Assembly (NCBI GenBank): GCA_963921795.1 | Contig: OY997645.1 | Span: forward strand, 27,911,659 to 27,975,658 | DNA length: 64,000 nt | Reading direction: 5' to 3' | DNA from: Nannobrachium achirus | Taxonomy: Eukaryota; Chordata; Actinopteri; Myctophiformes; Myctophidae | Shown here: one piece after another, positions 461 to 62,987 of the stretch | Numbering within the stretch: position 1 is the first letter of the stretch | How the letters are laid out: every line of letters begins with the position of its first letter | Notes under the pieces: generated by a model | The model's database searches: none | The model's input: only the letters and a program-made list of their open reading frames with translations | What the model was told of the DNA's origin: nothing | Program-made: the position numbers and the translations under genes

Positions 461-505
461 AAAACTAGTGAAAACAGACGATCTACAAGCACACAACGCC
501 TCGCA
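461..505 (+). repeat. Portable hairpin, half copy (PH1)
   Basis: One arm of the recurrent palindrome: CTAGTGAAAACAGACGATCTACAAGC followed by a CACAACGCCTCGC tip. The second arm is absent. Its 5' flank (AAGCCCTGCTTCATCATACAA) matches the reversed flank of the copy at 15713, so the two share one parent element. Confidence 0.75.
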
Positions 506-631
506 TCAGTACATTTTTTAGATGATAAATACAAAACGAACCGTTTTGGACATACAAGGTTTCCACCCAACAATGACGATATACTAGTGTTGTTGCTGTT
601 CTTATACTACCATTATTACTGGGGTTGGTGT

Positions 632-1491
632 GGGCCAATAGCCCTAATCGGGAGATAAGCGACCGTAGGTTGCTCATCTCCACAAATAGGGCAAAAATTT
701 GTTTTTCCAAAATCTTCCTGATCCATGTTGATGACATGAGTGTAGACATGCTGTGTAGTGATTTTCGTGATTTTAGGGCAAAATCTGTAGGAGCAGTGTC
801 CAAAAATGTGTTTTAAAAATTGGCCTGAAGGTGGCGCTAGAAGAGGGCCATGTGAGAAATGAGGGGTGGGGTCTCGGCGTTGCCTTGGCGGACGAATAGG
901 TAGCGGCCCCGGCTCTCCCGGACGCTCCTAGCCCGAGTTACGGCATTTTATGTGAGCTGCAGTGGAGGGGGTCCTCCACTGGGGGTGCCACCACTTTTGC
1001 ATCCGTCCTGGAGCACCAGGAGTGGGTGGTCCCCAGGAATTCCCCGTGAGCAACCCCGTTGGGGTGGTCATTTGGTCATTTTTGCACATTTGGTCATTTT
1101 TTACACCTGGGGTCCCCCAGGGTCCTGGGGGTCCCTGGAGCTCCGGGGGTCCTTGGAGGTTGTAGTTTGCCAGGTAAGGAGTGTGTGTGCAAAAGGTGGC
1201 ATGGATGGGGGCAACGGTTGTGGAGATATGAGCAGGGCAAAAGTGTGACGTGTCACTCACGGAGGGACATTTTTTTACACCTGGGGGTCCCCCAGGGACC
1301 TGGGGGTCCCTGGAGCTCTGGGGGTCCTTGGAGGTTGTAGTTTGGCAGGTAAGGAGTGTGTGTGCAAAATTTGGCATGGATGGGGGCAACGGTTGTGGAG
1401 ATATGAGCAGGGCAAAAGTGTGACTGACTCACAGACAGACAGACGGACAGCCGGTGGAGGTTTTGGTAGTAAATGCGACCTACGGTCGCAA
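632..1491 (-). mobile_element. Helitron-like element H1 (non-autonomous)
   Basis: Read on the minus strand it begins TTGCGACCGTAGGTCGCA (a 5' palindrome) after an A. It runs through a GTCTGTCTGTC-type tract, then a GC-rich block. It ends with a hairpin (651-683, 12 of 14 arm positions matching the perfect hairpin of H2) followed by a short tail. The GC-rich block with CCTGGGGGTCCC motifs occurs twice, at about 1098-1247 and 1276-1423. One copy of the roughly 130-bp unit found as an array in H2 lies at about 700-840. No Rep or helicase coding is visible. The 3' end is mutated (CTATTGG), so the family call rests on the better copies. Confidence 0.6.
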
Positions 1492-1620
1492 TAATACATG
1501 ACCGTCATGTTTCAACCTGAGATCCAGTGGAGTATCCGCGCCTCAACGGTTTGAGCTACAAATGTCAGATTTAAAAAATAAAGTGCTTACCCAAGTCTCC
1601 TTTTACTCAGAAATGACGCC

Positions 1621-2294
1621 TGTTACGACCTTATATGGTGTCTAGAGGCTAAAAGGAGTAACATGATGTGAAAAGTATGACAAACCAGAGTAACCAAAAA
1701 GTTGACATTTATTAAGGTCAAACAAGGGTTAAATTAACAGGGAAAACTCAACTTCAGGGTTGCCAAAGCCAAAATACGCCCTACCTGCAAATAAAAAGCT
1801 AGACTACACACCCAAAACAAAAGTACAATCTAAGCTCCTTACCTCAACAAAACAGTCAGAAAAGGGGGGAGTAAAATAAATGGCAGCACACCCCTACATG
1901 TTTCCCTTTAAAATGGAAATGGTTTGTAATGCAGTCAAGTTTCTTAACTAATGGTCACTAGTGTTAGAATCTGACTTTAAAACACACAGTAATTAAAGCC
2001 ATCTTAGCACAAAGCAGCAGACGGGCACACAGCCTATAGACTCAAAAACACTAGCCACAAACAGAAGGGTTTCAGCATAGGTGACGGATGGCAAGAGGGC
2101 TGAAGTGGTGTTCGTCTCAGGCTTTTATGCTGGCTGGTTGATTGGGGTAAGGAGACCTAGGTGTGTCCCCAATCTCCTCGCCCCTCCTCCAATCTCAACT
2201 GCCACTCCCCAATTTCCAGGCACTGAAAACACTCAGAGGGAGAAAACAATGAGGCCAGGAAACACTCAATATGAGGCCAACTAGGGCCGTAACA
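1621..2294. mobile_element. Solo LTR of an LTR retrotransposon
   Basis: The segment begins TGTTACGACC and ends GGCCGTAACA, so its 10-bp ends are inverted repeats with one mismatch and have the TG...CA form of an LTR. It is flanked by the identical 5-bp sequence ACGCC at 1616-1620 and 2295-2299. No gag/pol sequence or second LTR is adjacent, so this looks like a solo LTR left by recombination. A 5-bp duplication is usual for Ty3/gypsy and several other LTR groups; the exact family is not recognised. Strand is undetermined. Confidence 0.8.
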
Positions 2295-2718
2295 ACGCCG
2301 TTCAACGATAATTACACACCGCTCCCGGATTGTTTAAATAAAAAGCATTTTTATCCTCGTATTTCCTGAATTTCCCCCTCTAGTGGACAGTCGCGTCATC
2401 TCCGGTCGCTCATTGTAGTGAAGACTTTATTAGAAGTTTGCATAGAAAAAGGTACAGTTTCATGACGGTACAGTACACTGGTACAAGGTCAACTAAAAGG
2501 AGATCCTAGTAAGCTTTTCGGCTTATTTACACAGGAAACCATTTAAGTATATCTCATATAACATTGAATGATAGATGGATAGAACACAGTACTAGTATGC
2601 AGTATAGTCAGAAAAAAAAACAGTGCAGAAAAATATCTACAGTAGATATTTACAATAGAAGGGTCAGGGCTGGGCTAGGTTTGTTTTTACTAGTTACGAG
2701 CGGCTGCCGCCTGTAAAA
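2295..2718. other. Anonymous sequence, probably LINE 3' region
   Basis: No gene is visible. The part next to 2719 contains an A-run (2612-2620) and the short palindrome ATATCTACAGTAGATAT. It lies immediately 3' of the minus-strand LINE reading frame, so it is plausibly its 3' untranslated tail, but no element end could be fixed. Confidence 0.45.
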
Positions 2719-61134: not shown

Positions 61135-61268
61135 ATGTCTGTCTGTCTGTCTGTCTCTCTCTCTCTCTCTCTCTCTGTGTGTGTGTGTGTGTGTGTGTGT
61201 GTGTGTGTGTGTGTGTGTGTGTGTGTGTGTGTGTGTGTGTGTGTGTGTGTGTGTGTGTGTGTGTGTGT
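61135..61268 (+). repeat. (TCTG)n-(TC)n-(TG)n compound microsatellite
   Basis: Five TGTC units, a CT run, then about 92 bp of TG. Confidence 0.96.
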
Positions 61269-62500
61269 TAATATTCACTATAAATATGAACACTGTATAC
61301 TGGAGTTAACATTATATAGACCCTATCACTTACTATTCCTCTAACAAGCTGCCCACAAATCCACCCAACCAAATGCTAGGGCTTAGAGACAGTCTTGTTT
61401 AAAGTCAGATAGTGTCATGTTGTACCCACTATGACCTCACAACAATGCTGTGTTTTCGGGTTAAAGATTAGCATGTACTGCATGTGAAATATTTAGTAAT
61501 AATCTTTCATTGTAAATGCTTTTGAAATGAGCTGCAAACCATTGTGGTCCTTCTGGATTAGATCCACACTGAATAGCTCTATGTTATTTTACAGTGACAG
61601 AAGTTGTTTGTGTTTAAGCCAGCGTCCTAGAGGAGTGGGGATTTTGGGGAAAAGGCCTTTGCTAGTGGTTTTTGGGTCACATTCAATCCAAACACACTCT
61701 CTGTTACGGGATAGCAACAGCCATAAAAGTAGGTCGTTTAAAAAAAGCCATGATGTTTTCAAGTGATTTGTTATTGCCATGAAGTGTTTCGTTTGCAGTT
61801 TCGTCTCTCTCTCCATTTGACATTGGCAGTGGTTAATTCCACTGTCCCTTGCATGTCACTGTGGCAAAATATAAACCTGCAAAGCATGATGAATAAGTAA
61901 TGAGCTGGCAACGTGATGAACAAGAATGCGTCACTCACTTTATTACAACCATGTCAAAATTCACTGAATTAGCATTCTGTAGGCAAGCAATTATGCCTGC
62001 CAAAAGCTTGTAAGAATATTGTATTTATTTATTTTCTATTCATTATAAGCTACAAATGAGGCAATGCTTAAATGCATAACATATTCACCATTGTATCATA
62101 TATCAAATAATGATGATAACTGTACATATAGAGGAAGAAAGACAGACAGACAGAGATAGCAAGTTCATTGCAGATTTTGAAGGAGAAACCTGGGCTCAGA
62201 ATGCTATTTGAAGGAAGGCCCATATTCTCTCATTGACGCACAACCATTTTCCAGGGAGACACATGGCCTGCTCTGAGTGCCAGGGTGGTACGTGTGACTT
62301 TTTGTCACATTGCAGCTTAATAGGGTCATTTGGAAGGGCATGTGGTACTGGTTTAATGATCCCACTATACCCTCACAGCAAAATTCTCAGTGATAACTTG
62401 ACTCCGAGAATGCTTTTGGAGGTCCATTTGTGACTGTTTTAACAGAGGATTTTACTGTGGGGTGCCTGACGATACAAACAATATTTTAGTATTATTTTAT
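61269..62500. other. Intron 1, no exon seen
   Basis: Nothing recognised apart from AAAGACAGACAGACAGAG at about 62139. Confidence 0.6.
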
Positions 62501-62650
62501 GTGTGTGTGTGTGTGTGTGTGTGTGTGTGTGTGTGTGTGTGTGTGTGTGTGTGTGTGTGTGTGTGTGTGTGTGTGTGTGTGTGTGTGTGTGTGTGTGTGT
62601 GTGTGTGTGTGTGTGTGTGTGTGTGTGTGTGTGTGTGTGTGTGTGTGTGT
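62501..62650 (+). repeat. Longest pure (GT)n tract in the window
   Basis: About 150 bp of uninterrupted GT. The flanks on both sides contain GTGCCTGAC(G/A)ATACAAA (62462 and 62672), a direct repeat of about 16 bp around the array. Confidence 0.96.
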
Positions 62651-62919
62651 GGTAGTATTGGGAGTGGAGGTGTGCCTGACAATACAAATTGTTTGATTGC
62701 TGTTCAAATAAACAATCTATTTCAAATGATATTTACTGTAGTGCGAAAACATCTTATCCATCACAGCTGTCATCACAAAAGTTATATCTTTAGTATGTAC
62801 ATTAGGTTCACAGCCCTCTACACTTATAACAGCTGTTATTTGAGATAATCACAATTATCTTGCATAATTGTCATATATTGCCATTGAAAAAAATATTCAT
62901 ACATTTTAAAAGAAATGTA

Positions 62920-62987
62920 GAAATAGCCAAACTACAAGCTCACAACCCGTCACGATGTTGTGAGCTTTTAGATCGGCTAACCACTAT
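62920..62987 (+). repeat. Portable hairpin, stand-alone (PH16)
   Basis: GAAATAGCCAAACTACAAGC and GTGAGCTTTTAGATCGGCTA arms around CGTCACG. It is flanked exactly by 12-bp direct repeats AAAAGAAATGTA (62908-62919 and 62988-62999), with no larger transposon around it. Confidence 0.88.

Follow-up and report, generated by a model that had tools for sequence, protein, structure and literature searches.

In Acropora corals, the CMITEs are families of miniature inverted-repeat transposable elements (MITEs) that differ in their terminal repeats but have in common a conserved internal stretch, about 75 bases long and of unknown origin (PMC2872659). In fish, the hAT transposon Tol2 contains an internal Angel element (PMC8151067), and a replication fold-back model was derived from Angel, a zebrafish MITE, as summarized in PMC12628747. 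Palindromic MITE-like repeats are also known from Anopheles (PMC3212995). Here we analyzed one 64-kb stretch of the genome of the fish Nannobrachium achirus (contig OY997645.1, positions 27,911,659 to 27,975,658), referred to as the window, from which all results come and in which a palindrome of typically about 71 bp recurs within elements that have different ends. In our preferred reading, which we consider about evenly poised between right and wrong, this palindrome is not a feature of one transposon but a recurring MITE core, non-coding and about 71 bp long, that travels as a passenger in elements and probably came into several families through fold-back template switching.

The likeness to the CMITEs lies in one internal region shared by families with different terminal inverted repeats (TIRs), which is also what we observed here. 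CMITEs have TTAA duplications and piggyBac-like CC[C/T]T ends, whereas the elements of the window have 8-bp, TTAA and TTA duplications, and the core here is a palindrome. CC[C/T]T ends together with TTAA in all families were not found in the window, 8-bp and TTA duplications being present, and with the window the pattern known from CMITEs would come to span several superfamilies. By description, the palindrome also resembles Angel as a fold-back element in fish that travels as a passenger in a hAT element (PMC12628747 and PMC8151067).

In public collections, the 20-mer AAAATAGCAGATCTACAAGC matched one viral contig, and BLAST at 1e-5 detected no resemblance between the sequence around that match and the window. 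A 29-base pattern had no match in public genome contigs. Six 14-mers searched in the literature returned only an unrelated alga paper, and no report of this palindrome was among the literature matches listed, in a search outside which most subscription papers lay. Nested MITEs, that is, elements inserted into other elements, match the copies at 29817, 57361 and possibly 43550, but fail to explain the families that carry the arm directly. Short mitochondrial palindromes are seemingly mobile, and none is known to act as a transposon core.

Copies of the palindrome in the window

The arm of the palindrome is AAAATAGCnGATCTACAAGCTCACAACGCnnCGC. With up to three mismatches allowed, the 20-mer AAAATAGCAGATCTACAAGC gave 20 matches in the window and none in each of 100 shuffles. 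We also used a 28-bp arm profile, built from 20 arms, with a cut-off of 9.0 bits. It retrieved 27 arms at 9.0 bits or more, the top score of 20 Markov-model 64-kb sequences being 8.4 bits, and seven of the 27 had been absent from profile building, including those at 8569 (15.3 bits) and 12991 (12.6 bits). The first-pass annotation of this DNA had claimed about 16 hairpin copies. The 27 arms include every one of its 16 loci and, with 8569 and 12991 as additions, represent 18 loci in 64 kb. Nothing of this kind arose in shuffled sequence. As the loci were found through the outer arm, they are biased towards high outer-arm conservation and identity.

Two arms could be aligned at 10 of the 18 loci, with lengths of 48-76 bp in these ten. 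Six loci have one arm only (461, 8569, 12991, 19249, 45414 and 57361), and those at 15713 and 22251 are partial palindromes. The former (15705..15765, minus strand) consists of a full arm and a truncated second arm. The latter (22251..22292, plus strand) is a remnant in a CAGTGGTGG-type element and the weakest of the loci listed earlier (9.2 bits), with 22257-22351 being 77% similar to the copy at 43550. A single outer arm lies at 8569..8588 (plus strand), and the single arm at 45417..45443 (minus strand) was detected both as a 20-mer match and by the arm profile.

A covariance model made from the ten two-armed copies regained those ten, as expected by construction, and more weakly the copies at 15713 and 19249. 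The window contains eight strong non-simple palindromes, half of which are members of this family. Three palindromes unlike it are located at 53031-53068 (16/16 paired bases), 53343-53432 and 18793-18838. When folded as DNA and compared with shuffles, five of six tested copies were far below (z −6.0 to −15.4), and the copy at 31113 was not stable (z −0.84). Rfam gave no match in the window at the gathering score. An RNA gene was rejected, since neither an Rfam nor a tRNA match is present in the window. A Helitron, in which a CTRR end should come after the hairpin in every copy, was rejected as well: of the 27 arms, only those at 461, 15713, 19249 and 31113 have CTAG next to them.

Outer edge and host families

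Similarity between contexts begins sharply at AAAATAGC. In 11 chosen arms, mean pairwise identity rose from about 0.27 across the 40 bp beyond the edge to about 0.87 across the first 20 bp within it, so that the palindrome has the constant edge of inverted repeats that characterizes a MITE. The between-context outer-arm identity of 0.87 is near the within-family value (146/161), meaning that arms from different families are almost equally similar.

We compared 90-bp flanks (28 flanks, 378 pairs) with 4000 shuffled pairs, which set the 99.9% level at a score of 26. The flanks formed the groups 461 with 15713, 19249 with 31113, 18186/18468 with 25800/26013, and 43550 with 22251, while 29817 grouped with 12991 (score 27) and more weakly with 57361 (24). 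The flanks at 49112, 33386, 45414, 62920 and 8569 grouped with no other locus in this comparison. Two cross-group scores exceeded 26, namely 12991 with the left flank of 43550 (29, adjoining the arm) and the right flanks of 15713 and 62920 (28, away from the 15713 arm); the right flanks of 29817 and 31113, with a TTAA-type end, scored 25, just under the 99.9% level.

The same arm adjoins unrelated sequence in the CAGGGGCG, GTTCCCAAAC, TTA-flanked GGGCTTGATATAC and CGTCATTG-ended elements. In the CAGGGGCG element at 25719-26159, which has the 8-bp target-site duplication (TSD) TGCACACA, two palindromes (25801..25871 and 26014..26084, both listed on the plus strand) form an inverted pair. A second copy of this element at 18095-18577, with 7/8 duplication bases alike, contains a left palindrome at 18187..18257 (plus strand) and a right one at 18460..18530 (minus strand), one arm end of which is decayed.

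The GTTCCCAAAC element at 19184-19466 is hAT-like and has the 8-bp TSD GTATAGAG at 19176-19183 and 19467-19474; its one arm (19257..19290, plus strand) is 73 bp from the element end. The decayed palindrome at 31113..31183 (plus strand) sits at about the same place as this arm, with an alignment score of 140 across both sides and of 48 beyond the palindrome alone, where 99% of 500 shuffles scored 47 or less. A third hAT-type host is the CAGTGGTGG element at 43312-43822 (TSD CATTTTAC), holding the palindrome at 43552..43627 (plus strand), and the shortened palindrome at 33388..33435 (plus strand) lies in an outer element at 33060-33556 with TAGGGCATTCAC ends and the exact 8-bp duplication ATTGCTAC. 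We assigned host classes from ends and duplications, not from transposases. The hAT-type class, with 8-bp duplications and CAG-like ends, covers the elements duplicating TGCACACA, CATTTTAC and GTATAGAG, in which no transposase was seen and whose ends are CAGGGGCG, CATGGTG/CAGTGGTGG and CGCTGG/CACTG.

The palindrome at 49115..49185 (plus strand) forms the center of a TTA-flanked, 150-bp palindromic element (49075-49224, GGGCTTGATATAC palindrome), the 71-bp palindrome being 0.5 bp off center. At 49072-49227 there is a TTA duplication and a TIR starting with GGG, in one copy and with no transposase, which we take to indicate a PIF/Harbinger-type host by the rule of TTA duplication and GGG-starting TIR. 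In six one-copy hosts the palindrome tends to lie at the host center (1769 of 100000 uniform draws as extreme); these hosts were picked post hoc, and the set excludes 22251, the CAGGGGCG elements with their two palindromes, and others. Taken together, the host elements carry 8-bp, TTAA and TTA target duplications (TGCACACA, CATTTTAC, GTATAGAG, ATTGCTAC, TTAA and TTA).

The CGTCATTG-ended element at 363-580 is palindromic with (AT)CGTCAYTG ends and has one arm (471..504, plus strand), and the copy at 15713 has a flank in common with it. A relative of this element without a recognizable arm (42112..42316, plus strand; here 42121) aligns with it on both sides (score 111; left part E value 1.6e-4). 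No arm is visible there, the arm scoring 12 against its counterpart, and 0.87 of 2000 shuffles scored as high. When pieces of the 461 element were removed, the best gain, from 106 to 113, came from a 4-bp piece of no significance; with a 19-bp tandem duplication of 42121 collapsed too, a 31-bp arm piece became the best (from 99 to 120), in an alignment to the highly diverged 42121. The stretch ACATTT just beyond the arm in 461, 19249 and 45414 had suggested half copies as an ancestral non-palindromic form. We dropped this idea because the ACATTT stretch of the 461 element aligns with the arm-less 42121 and so looks like host sequence.

Spread of the palindrome and insertion marks

The earlier view that shared ancestry of the hosts does not easily explain the palindrome is borne out by the sharp edge and by families that otherwise share little, while nesting explains part of the pattern. 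We propose that host transposases amplify the palindrome as a passenger, with some copies sitting in nested elements. Entry into other families probably took place by template switching or gap repair in which the folded strand served as template for a copy within a second element, and founders would thereby be good palindromes that lack their own target duplication. This entry model follows the spirit of the fold-back replication model proposed for Angel (PMC12628747).

Several observations weigh against passenger spread with template-switch entry. No copy shows the act of transfer itself, and the evidence is confined to one 64-kb window. In 42121, the sole arm-less host relative, divergence has gone too far for the boundary to be located, and two of the 11 contexts used for the edge (29817 and 57361) are the same element. 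Both the 461/15713 and the 19249/31113 groups have CAAACTAGTG outside the arm, so that the transferred piece may not have been identical in every case. Further, the direct repeat around the copy at 62920 looks like the target duplication of an inserted element, a mark that template switching does not have to leave.

In a bolder version, which we consider rather unlikely, the 71-bp palindrome would be a mobile unit of minimal size that passes between DNA transposons of different superfamilies when its folded strand is copied into them, unrelated transposases thereby spreading one and the same core. If the core truly crosses superfamilies, MITE classification based on ends alone would overlook shared history, and the long-standing question of how MITE interiors arise could be tested by counting a single short sequence across whole genomes. 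If nesting accounts for the entire pattern, the window would be a clear example of nested MITEs mimicking unrelated hosts of one unit.

We also considered whether the palindrome is a very small transposon, made of two terminal repeats of about 20 bp placed back to back, which inserts into abundant elements by means of an unknown transposase. The constant outer edge AAAATAGC and the variable length between arms (48-76 bp) agree with this, as does the copy at 62920..62983 (plus strand), which has no recognized host and is bordered by the 13-bp direct repeat TAAAAGAAATGTA (62907-62919 and 62987-62999) that touches the left arm and is 3 bp from the right arm. Random window positions gave a repeat of at least 12 bp in 102 of 20000 cases, which in our reading are largely simple repeats. 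However, only 62920 has a long repeat by both arms; 43550 has a 9-bp direct repeat at 10 bp on either side, and the other eight two-armed copies have direct repeats of 3-7 bp, like 90 mismatched flank pairs (3-8 bp). No constant-length TSD of the palindrome itself was found among the ten two-armed copies. We therefore consider a small transposon with its own transposase unlikely, and the earlier suggestion of a tiny mobile unit stands as possible, lacking a constant target duplication in these ten copies.

Nesting in a TTAA element, sequence decay and neighboring repeats

The well-preserved palindrome at 29817..29887 (plus strand) lies within an element at 29725-29932 (no strand assigned) that has TTAA at both ends of matching TIRs (CCACTTGAACC) and is the sole intact copy of its kind with the palindrome. 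It is a TTAA-type host, on either the piggyBac or the Kolobok side; a TTAA rule for Kolobok is given in PMC6004289. A CAGGGGTCTTCAA end starting at 29589 and its partner at 30018-30036 enclose it, and no target duplication was established for this outer element. The single arm at 57362..57388 (plus strand), a collapsed palindrome in sequence starting with CAGGGCTTCTCAAAG, belongs to a relative of this element: the alignment of 57361 with 29817 extends to either side of the collapsed palindrome (score 90, against a maximum of 42 in 200 shuffles), and no TTAA-type end remains within 130 bp (8 and 9 of 15 positions). The CAGGGCTTCTCAAAG end lies outside this copy, from about 57181, and its far end was not established. 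At 12992..13010 (minus strand), a single outer arm is followed at 38 bp by a TTAA-type end (13034-13048) matching at 13/15 positions, and it aligns with the right flank of 29817 (0/1000 shuffles as high). By alignment, the copies at 29817, 57361 and 12991 can thus be shown to belong to one small TTAA element. CAGGGGTCTTCAA and CAGGGCTTCTCAAAG are outer elements, because the 29817 and 57361 copies belong to the TTAA element.

The first-pass annotation described hosts with different termini. Part of the apparent host variety arises because two TTAA-element copies lie between the ends of other elements: two of the six terminus types are outer elements and CAGTGGTGG is perhaps a third, while several families do carry the arm directly. 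For CAGTGGTGG, a copy at 41229 resembles 43550 as far as ACATACATTA and diverges right after, and 12991 and the left flank of 43550 have about 45 bp in common (0/1000 shuffles as high). It is possible from these comparisons that the 43550 palindrome lies in a TTAA element nested in the CAGTGGTGG element; alternatively, 12991 may itself be a piece of a CAGTGGTGG-family element. No right end of a nested element was found at 43550, and 41229, like the 12991 sequence beyond TTAA, was at shuffle level against the counterpart there (162 and 387 of 1000).

One ancestral TTAA element with the palindrome, nested in many hosts with decayed ends, might account for all copies. In its favor, TTAA-type ends, with positions matched, occur near the arm at 29817 (15/15 on both sides), 12991, 31113 (15/15) and, weakly, 45414 (11/15 at 45 bp from the arm), and the alignments of 57361 with 29817 and of 12991 with the left flank of 43550 point the same way. 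However, within 130 bp the flanks of CAGGGGCG, GTTCCCAAAC (19249), GGGCTTGATATAC and CGTCATTG reach 8-10/15, which is the random level. The left flank of 43550 is also at random level (9/15) and has no similarity to the right flank of 29817 (787/1000 shuffles as high), and the flank alignments of 45414 are at shuffle level (158/1000 for the right flank, and 347/1000). The exception is 31113, where a hAT-like end (to 31248) directly abuts TTAACCACTTAAACC (31248-31262). Descent from one host with diverged ends, which the first-pass annotation had named as the finding that would overturn its view, holds for only part of the copies, namely 29817, 57361 and 12991, and possibly, judging by these alignments, 43550/22251 and 31113. 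A single ancestor for every copy is accordingly improbable in our view.

A different near-perfect palindrome with TTAACYACTTRAACY ends at 8425-8496 has the same TTAA-type end as 29725-29932. This end with another core would represent modularity in the reverse direction.

Changes between copies had been described as mostly paired, which we could not confirm. In a comparison of nine copies (36 pairs, with the short 33388 row omitted), one-sided differences dominated, symmetric differences exceeding them in 0/36 pairs, and non-Watson-Crick pairs within single copies numbered 2 to 11 of 29-34. Symmetric differences were commonest between the CAGGGGCG family and other copies, up to five per pair. 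The covariation alignment of ten copies did contain some paired change, mainly between families, but not as the main pattern. There, 83.4% of pair cells were able to pair (27/500 shuffles as high), 8 pairs had changed on both sides (89/500 reaching that), as had 13 cells (10/500), and the count of further pair types and the covariation score were reached by 401/500 and 18/500 shuffles, respectively. We rejected compensatory evolution as the main pattern, given that one-sided changes prevail and that in two of five comparisons with shuffles nothing stands out (89 and 401 of 500). Mirrored CpG decay could in principle mimic paired changes. The proposal that template switching keeps the palindrome paired finds no support either, copies decaying mostly one-sidedly. 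From the alignment, we read the founders as good palindromes whose copies would afterwards have decayed freely. Palindromes are known to be unstable, and arm loss at 6 of the 18 loci fits this, 57361 compared with 29817 displaying one collapse.

The tip does vary, as claimed, but it is CpG-rich and its variability is mostly CpG decay plus one family variant. Relative to the consensus (8 groups with equal weight; arms of 8569, 12991, 22251 and 33386, the second arm of 15713, the left arm of 18468 and the right arms of 31113, 43550 and 62920 omitted), CpG sites had 0.32 substitutions per site. For non-CpG sites, the figure was 0.068 within the outer 20 bp; in the inner part it was 0.123, falling to 0.085 when the CAGGGGCG family was excluded. 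A real contrast between a conserved outer arm and a free tip was therefore rejected, CpG accounting for most of it (0.32 vs 0.07-0.12 elsewhere).

These figures also bear on whether the arm is a functional module, a site for a transposase or host factor retained because it aids the transposition of unrelated elements. Within families, outer arms were identical at 146/161 aligned positions and flanks at 646/777 (p 0.017, gaps ignored), and the authors of the coral CMITE study raised a like idea (PMC2872659). But the excess is small, the arm is lost at 6/18 loci, the ascertainment through the outer arm favors conservation, and non-CpG divergence without the CAGGGGCG family is about equal in the inner and outer parts (0.085 vs 0.067), which leaves a retained functional site very improbable. 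Copying of a hairpin RNA into the genome by reverse transcription of the long interspersed nuclear element (LINE) type is hardly credible: the 13-bp repeat at 62920 starts at TTTT/AAAA, a LINE-1-like target, but this is one copy of ten, no A-tail was seen, and copies occupy matching places in DNA elements (the CAGGGGCG, 461/15713 and 19249/31113 pairs).

Other repeats were observed in the window. Tandem arrays whose repeat unit measures about 130 bp occupy 13584-13842 and 14344-15028, and the sequence at 720-1256 recurs inverted at about 91-92% at 13172-13703 and 13927-14465. A 353-bp inverted repeat, 86% complementary, has its halves 1.2 kb apart at 35174-35526 and 36726-37078. Finally, an open reading frame of 321 amino acids at 55168-56133 had no Pfam or PDB match; from its RRTSLP motif, we take it to resemble the membrane N-terminal region of phosphodiesterase 3.

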